Shown here: positions 20,133-47,474 of the stretch, in pieces
How positions within the stretch are numbered: the stretch's first letter is position 1
How the letters are laid out: each line of letters opens with the position of its first letter
Assembly (NCBI RefSeq): GCF_900116005.1
Contig: NZ_FOYI01000001.1
Coordinates: 555,920 to 619,919 of the forward strand
Direction: 5' to 3'
From: Poseidonocella sedimentorum
GTDB lineage: Bacteria > Pseudomonadota > Alphaproteobacteria > Rhodobacterales > Rhodobacteraceae
DNA length: 64,000 bases
Translations under genes and position numbers: made by a program
Notes under the pieces: model-generated
The model's database searches: none
What the model saw: only the letters and a program-made list of their open reading frames with translations
Told to the model about the DNA's origin: nothing

Positions 20133-21104
20133 TCAGTACTTGGAGGGGACGTACAGCTCGGGCGGCAGCACCGCGCGCTCGTAGTCGGGGTTGAAGACCC
20201 GGTCGGGCAGTTCGACCTCCTCGTGCGGCACGTCTTCGTAGGGGAAGAGCGAGAGCAGGTGGTCGATGCAGTTGAGCCGCGCGCGTTTCTTGTCATTGCC
20301 GGGGACGATGTACCACGGGCTCTCGGGGATGTTGGTGCGCGCCAGCATCTCTTCCTTGGCCTTGGTGTATTGCTCCCAGCGGACGCGCGATTGCAGGTCC
20401 ATGGGCGAGAGTTTCCACTGTTTGAGCGGGTCGTGGATGCGCATGAGGAATCGCATCTGCTGTTCTTCATCCGTTACCGAGAACCAGTATTTCACAAGGT
20501 GAATGCCCGACCGGCGCAGCATCCGCTCGAATTCTGGCACGTCCTCGAAGAACTGCTCGACCTCGTCTTCGCCGGCAAAGCCCATGACCCGCTCGACCCC
20601 CGCGCGGTTGTACCAGGAGCGGTCAAAGAGCACGATCTCGCCGCCTGCGGGCAGGTGCGGGACGTAGCGCTGGAAATACCACTGGGTCTTTTCGCGGTCC
20701 GACGGGGCGGGCAGGGCCACGGTCCGGACAACGCGAGGGTTGAGCCGCTGGGAGATGCGCTTGATCACGCCGCCCTTGCCGGCGCTGTCGCGGCCCTCGA
20801 AGATGACGACGACCTTCTTGCGGTGATAGACCACCCAGTCCTGAAGCCGGATCAACTCGGCCTGAAGCCGCAGGAGCGATTTGAAATACTCCGGGCGCGG
20901 GATCGTCGGCCCATGGGCGGCGCGGTAGATCTCGCGGATCTTCATCGACAGCACCGCGTCCTCAAGCTCGATCTCGTAGTCTTCGTCGAGCGTGTCGGCG
21001 AGTTCGGTCTCGAGCCAGTCGCGGGGATCGGGGTCGGTGGGCGTCTCGGCGGGTGTCTCGGTGGGTGTGTCGGTGGGTGTGTCGGTGGGTCTGTCGGTGG
21101 GCAT
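20133..21104 (-). CDS. ppk2: Polyphosphate kinase 2 (PPK2 family)
   Basis: 323-residue kinase that transfers phosphate between polyphosphate and nucleotides. Walker A-like loop FEGRDSAGKGG (about residues 101-111), Walker B region VLFDRSWYNRAGVERVMGF, and the lid segment with conserved Arg residues. The first 25 residues are a low-complexity T/P/E/D repeat (PTDTPTDTPTETP) encoded by a 12-bp DNA repeat, not part of the enzyme fold. Single PPK2 domain; whether GDP, ADP or NMP is the acceptor cannot be told by eye. Confidence 0.9.
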   Translation of the reverse strand: MPTDRPTDTPTDTPTETPAETPTDPDPRDWLETELADTLDEDYEIELEDAVLSMKIREIYRAAHGPTIPRPEYFKSLLRLQAELIRLQDWVVYHRKKVVVIFEGRDSAGKGGVIKRISQRLNPRVVRTVALPAPSDREKTQWYFQRYVPHLPAGGEIVLFDRSWYNRAGVERVMGFAGEDEVEQFFEDVPEFERMLRRSGIHLVKYWFSVTDEEQQMRFLMRIHDPLKQWKLSPMDLQSRVRWEQYTKAKEEMLARTNIPESPWYIVPGNDKKRARLNCIDHLLSLFPYEDVPHEEVELPDRVFNPDYERAVLPPELYVPSKY

Positions 21105-46187: not shown

Positions 46188-46642
46188 GTCTATCCTTGGC
46201 CGGACCTTGCGTCCGGCATCACCGAGGCGCGCGCAGGCGCGGTCGGTCGGGGTGCACCCGGGGCGTTCGCAACGGCGCCGCATTGCGCCGGGGCCACCCT
46301 GGGCGGGGTCCCCCCTGCGTGATGTGGGAAAACGGTGCGTCAGGGCCGGGGGCGGGGTATCCCGCCTGCTCACGCGGCAGAGCGATAACGCCCTGTCTAC
46401 ATGGCGAGCCGCCGATTGCTTGTCAATGATACGGCGGGAGCAGGCGGCCGCGACGCGGCGAATTTTCGCAAACGGGCGCGATAATCCTTGTATGTCGCCC
46501 GCGAAAAGCGCATGTGTGCGCTGCTAACGTTATTTGCTTCGAACCACTGCTTCCGTTCATCCGGCTCTCAGTTGATCGATTCAGTCTGACTTTGCCGAGC
46601 TGCCGCGTACTGTGGGCAGCACTTGAACAGGAGACCACGGAT
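46188..46642. promoter_or_regulatory. Intergenic region between helicase and cold-shock genes
   Basis: 455 bases with no supported gene. The left part is GC-rich. From about 46480 the base composition becomes more balanced (TGCTAACGTTATTTGCTTCG), probably the promoter and long structured leader of the cold-shock gene, as usual for cspA mRNAs. The repeat-like GCCGCGACGCGGC near 46447 may form a hairpin. No small ORF with a good start was found. Confidence 0.4.
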
Positions 46643-46849
46643 ATGGCCAAAGGCACCGTGAAATTTTTCAATACTCAAAAAGGCTTCGGCTTCATCGAAA
46701 CCGAAACCGGTGGCAAGGACGTCTTCGTCCACATTTCCGCCGTTGAGCGCGCCGGTCTGACGACTCTGTCGGACGCCCAGAAAGTGACGTTCGAGGTCGA
46801 AACCGGCCGTGACGGCCGCGAAAGCGCGACCAATCTCGCCCTCGCGTGA
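46643..46849 (+). CDS. cspA: Cold-shock protein (CspA family)
   Basis: 68-residue single OB-fold RNA chaperone. RNP1 KGFGFIE and RNP2 DVFVHISA are intact; start MAKGTVKFFNTQ. Ribosome site ACAGGAGACCACGGAT. Codon choice is strongly biased, as for a highly expressed gene. A longer frame upstream is leader, not protein. Confidence 0.96.
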   Translation: MAKGTVKFFNTQKGFGFIETETGGKDVFVHISAVERAGLTTLSDAQKVTFEVETGRDGRESATNLALA

Positions 46850-46973
46850 GTTGAACAGGGCAATGGGCGCCTCGCGCGCCCACTGCCCGACTTCGCTTGC
46901 GCCCAAACCCGGTCAGGGCTGCGATCGTGCCAAACGGCGCGGGCCTGACACTCGGCCGAAGCGGCATGCGCGG

Positions 46974-47021
46974 ATGAACTGGCCCGCATGAATTGGCCCG
47001 CATGAATTGGCCCGCATGAAT
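46974..47021 (+). repeat. Tandem mini-ORF array in the tspO leader
   Basis: A 14-bp unit (TGGCCCGCATGAAT) is repeated three times. It creates ATGs at 46974, 46988 and 47002, each starting a five-codon frame M-N-W-P-A-TGA whose stop overlaps the next ATG (ATGA). The last overlap (47016-47019) leads into tspO, which also begins M-N-W. Because the unit is 14 bases, each frame shifts by -1 relative to the previous one and the stops line up with the starts. It looks like tandem duplication of the tspO start site, giving a chain of termination-reinitiation steps. Confidence 0.85.
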
Positions 47022-47474
47022 TGGGTCGTCTTCACGGCCTGCCTTGCGGCCTGCGCCGCCCCGGCGGTCTCCGGCATGCTGTTCAAGCCCGGCGACTGGT
47101 ACGCCCGCCTCAACAAGCCGCGGTGGACACCGCCTGACCGGATGTTTCCCGTCGTCTGGCTGATCCTCTACGTGAGCATGTCGATCGCGGCTGCGCGTGT
47201 GGCCGATGCGCCCTCTGGCGCGACGCTTCTGGCCCTCTGGGCGACGCAAATCGCCTTCAACACCCTGTGGTCAGGGGTCTTTTTCGGATTGAAGAAAATC
47301 CGGGCCGCGCTGGCCATCCTGGCCGTGCTCTGGATCTCGGTCCTCATCACCACGCTGGCCTTCTGGCAGGTCGACCCTGTCGCCAGCGCGCTCTTCGGCC
47401 TCTACCTTATCTGGATCACGGTGGCATTCGCGCTGAATGCCGCCATCTGGTCCCGCACTCCGCACACTGCCTGA
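47016..47474 (+). CDS. tspO: TspO/MBR family tryptophan-rich sensory protein
   Basis: 152-residue five-helix membrane protein. Conserved ...KPRWTPPDRMFPVVWLILY (about residues 31-49), LWATQIAFNTLWSGVFFGLK, and later YLIWITVAFALNAAIW are the TspO signatures. In Rhodobacter, TspO binds tetrapyrroles and modulates photosynthesis or stress gene expression. The ATG at 47016 continues directly from the upstream mini-ORF array; a TTG at 47007 would add MAR but is less likely. Confidence 0.93.
   Translation: MNWVVFTACLAACAAPAVSGMLFKPGDWYARLNKPRWTPPDRMFPVVWLILYVSMSIAAARVADAPSGATLLALWATQIAFNTLWSGVFFGLKKIRAALAILAVLWISVLITTLAFWQVDPVASALFGLYLIWITVAFALNAAIWSRTPHTA

Follow-up and report, generated by a model that had tools for sequence, protein, structure and literature searches.

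In E. coli and in Haloferax, reinitiation after termination is an established process at gene pairs that overlap (Huber et al. 2019, PMC6728339). In that report, coupling was found at four of five overlapping E. coli pairs. Removal of the Shine-Dalgarno motif abolished reinitiation at one of these pairs, cut it by 60-90% at three and was without effect at the fifth, a pair that showed no coupling (PMC6728339). Short tandem arrays located just before start codons are described for the TAACTGA heptamers of Beggiatoaceae and others, where array length changes unit-wise between strains (PMC4679880). Very short reading frames can also lie just upstream of a gene: the minigene mg2, of two codons, precedes txe and is reported to influence its translation, as tested with reporters (PMC8708949).

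The locus presented here belongs to a window of 64,000 nucleotides (the whole stretch of DNA that was analysed), in which positions 46974-47024 read ATGAACTGGCCCGC / ATGAATTGGCCCGC / ATGAATTGGCCCGC / ATGAATTGG, with ATGAATTGG being the start of tspO. Contingency loci are slippage-prone short tandem repeats, and the tspO array is like them in having a non-3n tandem unit at a translation start, so that its copy number could change; unlike in contingency loci, gaining or losing copies does not shift the frame of the gene, whose start is the last unit. Similarly to the ATGA- or TGATG-coupled pairs, at whose overlaps ribosomes are described to restart, stops within the tspO array overlap the next starts (PMC6728339). 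The pairs in that report differ from our case, however, in that the array chains three overlaps via five-codon frames that come from tandem repetition and its first frame follows no long gene (PMC6728339); coupling at the tspO array is putative. With the TAACTGA arrays it shares the short tandem run just before a start codon; in the description of those arrays a single heptamer serves many genes and places stops in all three frames (PMC4679880), whereas the unit here repeats the start of tspO itself and occurs at a single gene. The mg2 minigene is likewise a very short frame just upstream of a gene but, as described, it is a single copy located 15 nt before that gene and has its own ribosome-binding motif (PMC8708949).

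Results

The array is made of four copies of a nine-base segment, the beginning of tspO; copy 1 deviates at one base, and copies 1 to 3 are each followed by the same five bases. Tandem Repeats Finder reported it with a score of 95 (Table 1). Codon 2 is AAC in copy 1 and AAT in copies 2 to 4. An earlier note, made from the letters alone, had read the ATGs at 46974, 46988 and 47002 as each opening M-N-W-P-A-stop, with the TGA inside the next ATGA, and the final ATGA as leading into tspO; this reading is correct, and the fourth ATG, that of tspO, is at 47016. Stop and start overlap as ATGA at all three junctions of the array, which is the arrangement of ATGA-coupled gene pairs. The same note had remarked that the 14-base period keeps stops aligned with starts. 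The alignment holds, but it represents one arithmetic property and not several coincidences: every stop falls in the next start because the unit begins with ATGA and the period leaves a remainder of 2 on division by 3 (3n+2). Immediately upstream, the ATG at 46966 is a would-be fourth link of the stop-start chain.

No tandem run was found in the 120 bases before the match start at any of 80 related tspO loci (the best 80 of 154, one of which, L004, has 66 upstream bases only), nor at any of 29 further family loci, some of which may be the same species. Among 295 family genomes, the source genome alone contains the pattern of two linked units. The nearest two among the best 80 of 154 loci belong to an alphaproteobacterial MAG (L002, TspO 72% identity) and to Marimonas arenosa (L003, 70%). 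Both are without the array, showing alignment gaps of 23 and 34 bases at its site, and both carry AAC, the codon of copy 1. In Marimonas, an ATG is placed similarly to 46966 but in frame with tspO, and the start of the protein (P0043) is listed as MDVEGMNW. At the protein level, the nearest TspO is 76% identical, among 116 other matches of the protein search; the cluster of our protein has one member, on one contig, and the same-genus genome G001 has no tspO match. The close TspO relatives that we viewed start with M-N-W or M-S-W. Judged by these sequence comparisons, the array at tspO is lineage-specific as far as sampled.

The TspO protein scores above the curated cut-offs of both profiles (PF03073, 126.9 bits, cut-off 24; NF047825, 197.8 bits, cut-off 180). 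The NCBI TspO equivalog NF047825 is matched from residue 1, an alignment that speaks for the fourth ATG being the actual start of tspO. The hairpin that follows the upstream csp gene (Table 1) is possibly the csp terminator, an arrangement that would leave tspO with its own promoter. The csp-tspO order is common to L002 and L003, the closest two of the best 80 of 154 loci, and the other 78 are without a csp match. The sole Rfam row, the cspA thermoregulator at the neighbouring csp, reached 24.5 bits versus a gathering score of 78.

Table 1. Features of the tspO locus (window coordinates) and period-14 arrays at the starts of other genes (by genome).
Feature	Position or genome	Strand	Basis and remarks
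cold-shock-domain protein gene (csp), upstream of tspO	46643..46849	+	profile search; locus comparison
GC-rich strong hairpin after csp, without T run	46858..46889	+	fold; stems at same place in L002, L003
three-codon frame ATG CGC GGA TGA, TGA within first array ATGA	46966..46977	+	sequence reading
tandem array	46974..47024	+	period 14, 3.6 copies, 97% match
mini-ORF 1, MNWPA-stop, unit 1 of 14-bp array, AAC codon (as in L002, L003)	46974..46991	+	sequence, ORF translation
mini-ORF 2, MNWPA-stop, unit 2	46988..47005	+	sequence, repeat call, ORF translation
mini-ORF 3, MNWPA-stop, unit 3, TGA within tspO start	47002..47019	+	sequence, repeat call, ORF translation
tspO, 152 codons, start codon in fourth ATGA	47016..47474	+	Pfam PF03073, NCBIfam NF047825
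period-14 array at phnF	G387		profile match downstream
period-14 array at olsA, olsB-olsA junction	G012 (L130)		NCBIfam for olsB
period-14 array at PNPOx-family gene	G285		preceding gene unnamed
period-14 array at SWIM zinc-finger gene	G388		weak match, 23.4 bits, cut-off 19.6
period-14 array at small gene after murC	G145 (L132)		murC by NCBIfam

Our repeat survey covered 464 kb, i.e., C22:1-400000 (20 stretches) plus the window, or about 13% of the genome. There are 95 arrays scoring at least 40 in this span, 24 of them with a period not divisible by 3, and within those 24 the tspO array alone combines 3 or more copies with a match of 90% or more. The tspO repeat is more than chance. Two linked units were not found elsewhere in the genome, allowing up to 1 mismatch, and a single unit is present once elsewhere in the 464 kb, within a long open frame. 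The window contains, at 21033-21101, a 12-bp repeat of 5.8 copies within a 367-codon open frame.

Shine-Dalgarno pairing is -3.3 kcal/mol for unit 1, -4.0 before 46988 (unit 2) and -2.1 before both 47002 and 47016. For comparison, csp reaches -8.9 kcal/mol, and for the 74 related loci with an ATG at the start of the match the median is -7.5.

A search for four ATGAs spaced 14 bases apart returned arrays in 10 of 394 family genomes. The last ATG opens a real gene in 6 of these 10, tspO included, and the remaining arrays (G243, G157, G317 and G265, the latter a 7-mer) end without one. At three of the five other gene-start cases, the stop of the preceding gene lies inside the first ATGA (olsB in G012, murC in G145, and G285), a position at which a relay would count. 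The four ATGA units between olsB and olsA read MSARS, MSVGS, MSVGS and MSFGS, each followed by a stop; the genus sample for G012 is one genome. The small gene after murC is without a Pfam or NCBIfam match and is present in all 9 genus genomes searched. G145 alone of these 9 has 42 extra bases (3 x 14, with an ATGA each) between murC and this gene; in the other 8, murC directly overlaps the next gene as GTGA (7 by script; the eighth has these bases too, but its contig falls short of the script's length requirement). The stop-start register is kept in the inserted units. This is the cleanest history among the arrays found, and it means that an overlapping junction is able to take up extra units. 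The four ATGAs of G145 are intact, although adjacent units agree at just 4 to 6 of the remaining 10 positions (a count by eye). Such a pattern could reflect selection on the ATGAs; however, the search itself demanded ATGA.

An array sits at a gene start in five of the nine other period-14 genomes, which is above the upper bound of ~10% for the ATGA sites that could be gene starts (binomial tail ~0.001). This excess tells against the relay being a by-product, but the bound takes no account of arrays that break a frame inside a gene and are removed. The tspO array is one of a small recurrent class of start-codon arrays. No description of start-codon tandem arrays or chained mini-ORFs was found among the open-licence papers listed, which does not prove absence from the literature.

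Control searches were carried out for periods 13, 11, 17 and 16 in 223 family genomes each, and for periods 14 and 13 in phage contigs. Per 223 genomes, a match was found in 4 for period 14 (G000, G012, G145 and G157), in 3 for period 13, in 1 for period 16 and in 9 for period 11, where six derive from a dispersed 11-bp motif; period-17 ATGA arrays were absent from all 223. Gene-start cases amount to 6 in 394 genomes for period 14, three of which are in the shared 223 (G000, G012 and G145), and to one each for periods 11 and 16, at a biotin ligase-like gene and at an HPr kinase-like gene (L409, G005), respectively. The 16-bp units of L409 show GGAG- or GGGG-like motifs before the ATG. The period-13 family case runs in frame into a PEP mutase-like domain starting at residue 47, and a perfect five-unit 13-bp ATGA array (L280, 18-86) lies where a frame resembling the large subunit of phage terminase begins.

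The phage-contig matches were filtered by dropping arrays with unit identity below 0.6 outside ATGA and those with internal shorter periods (mostly 7-mers), keeping one array per 400-base bin. After this, 17 of 83 period-13 arrays lead into a frame of at least 60 codons, versus 6 of 54 period-14 arrays among the matches listed (Fisher p 0.17). Of ten proteins encoded after phage-contig arrays, three gave a family match in the profile search, namely exonuclease and head-tail attachment for period 14 and terminase for period 13; the other seven gave none. With so few cases in family genomes, no preference for a phase can be claimed, and there is none in the phage contigs. Since gene-start arrays of periods 11, 13 and 16 exist, the stop-start phase is not needed for an array to persist, and the idea of the 14-base period as a designed feature is weakened accordingly.

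Discussion

We consider it likely that the array arose by slippage-type tandem duplication of the tspO start in this lineage and that the relay is an arithmetic by-product. Near-identical units arranged head to tail, their absence from the orthologous place in relatives and the analogous arrays at unrelated genes all support duplication. The earlier note had named a recent slippage duplication as one possibility; duplication stands on the grounds just given (near-identical units, none at the 80 and 29 related loci, analogous arrays elsewhere), and we infer both its recency and a change of copy number. The duplication of the tspO start would have proceeded stepwise, by a slippage-type process. 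As copy 1 shares AAC with the nearest two relatives and AAT is found in copies 2 to 4, a two-copy stage probably came first: one synonymous change (AAC to AAT) would have occurred in the present start copy, and the AAT copy would then have expanded. Since the intact gene start is the final copy, extra units do not alter the TspO protein. In all likelihood, the stop-start relay is a by-product through which the duplication stays harmless. We think that most of the gene-start pattern in the family comes from ATGA being common at such places and from non-3n insertions being harmless provided that the final copy serves as the start.

A ribosome that initiates at 46974 is predicted to terminate within the following ATGA and to start again, with at most three such rounds on its way to tspO; other ribosomes probably initiate at 47016 directly. 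The expected effect would be a TspO yield that is neutral to modestly lowered, with no sensing device involved. The relay may pass ribosomes on but, given the weak Shine-Dalgarno pairing in the array, it would probably work poorly, and much of the output may come from direct starts at 47016.

Other origins and roles can be proposed for the same bases. The earlier note had suggested an attenuation device, and each mini-ORF indeed holds one Trp and one Pro codon, as a leader peptide sensing tryptophan or proline supply might. However, a single codon of each kind per frame is not a run of regulatory codons, and the Trp codon is a copy of the gene start, belonging to the M-N-W or M-S-W with which the close TspO relatives we viewed begin. 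The region 46955-47060 folds as its shuffles do (z +0.26), the + strand from 46415 to 47261 has no terminator-like site and the array has no Rfam match; fold, terminator scan and Rfam thus gave no terminator with a competing antiterminator after the leader. Moreover, tspO is not an amino-acid biosynthesis gene. The attenuation claim is therefore one that we abandon as extremely improbable. It is very doubtful, too, that the array is an iterated DNA-binding site for a regulator, overlapping the tspO start. Identical direct repeats can be operators, and dispersed 11-bp repeat arrays exist in this family, but no second pair of linked units was found in the source genome, the lone single copy in the 464 kb is within a long open frame, a 14-bp spacing does not correspond to a helical repeat and the unit consists of coding sequence from a gene start. 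An assembly artefact, conceivable in a draft genome of 27 contigs, is equally hard to credit: the genome is 99.86% complete with 0.27% contamination, copy 1 differs from the others by one base, and the 51 bp of the array are shorter than a usual short read.

A selected role for the relay deserves more weight, although we regard it as unlikely. The earlier note had offered a translation-coupling device, and coupling by termination and reinitiation may occur here. In this scenario, the chain of stops and starts was selected for coupling, with the number of units setting a step-down of tspO output or keeping a distant start coupled. The ATGA register is perfect in all units of the array, it is kept where arrays have been inserted at the ends of murC and olsB in genera other than this one, and reinitiation at overlapping pairs is established in E. 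coli and Haloferax (PMC6728339). Against this, the 3n+1 arrays of the phage contigs lead into frames of at least 60 codons at least as often as those of period 14 among the matches listed, and the array at tspO was not found outside this lineage. Shine-Dalgarno pairing in the array is weak, and in the E. coli pairs reported, removal of the motif mostly cut or abolished reinitiation (PMC6728339). A broader version, which we hold to be quite unlikely, would make ATGA-unit 3n+2 arrays self-sealing relays, i.e., copy-number rheostats that arise repeatedly at gene starts in this family. If it were true, slippage could lengthen or shorten an array and step the output of the gene up or down without breaking its frame, and ribosomes would have a way to the gene, whether from its old start or from a gene before it such as murC or olsB, at any number of units.

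Returning to duplication with the relay as a by-product, a gene start or an overlapping junction can gain bases through the self-closing duplication of an ATGA segment, with both proteins unchanged. If ribosomes do travel along the relay, these arrays provide natural constructs for testing how many times a single ribosome can restart. If the arrays are neutral, they caution against reading every chain of tiny frames upstream of a gene as regulatory.

The dispersed 11-bp motif met in the period-11 search consists of direct repeats, e.g., TATGACNTGCA, present at up to 24 places per genome in G197 (L379), G146 (L380), G020 (L383), G001 (L385), G184 (L386) and G070 (L381). Its reverse complement, GTCATA...GTCATA, presumably resembles the sites of PhoB/OmpR-family regulators.
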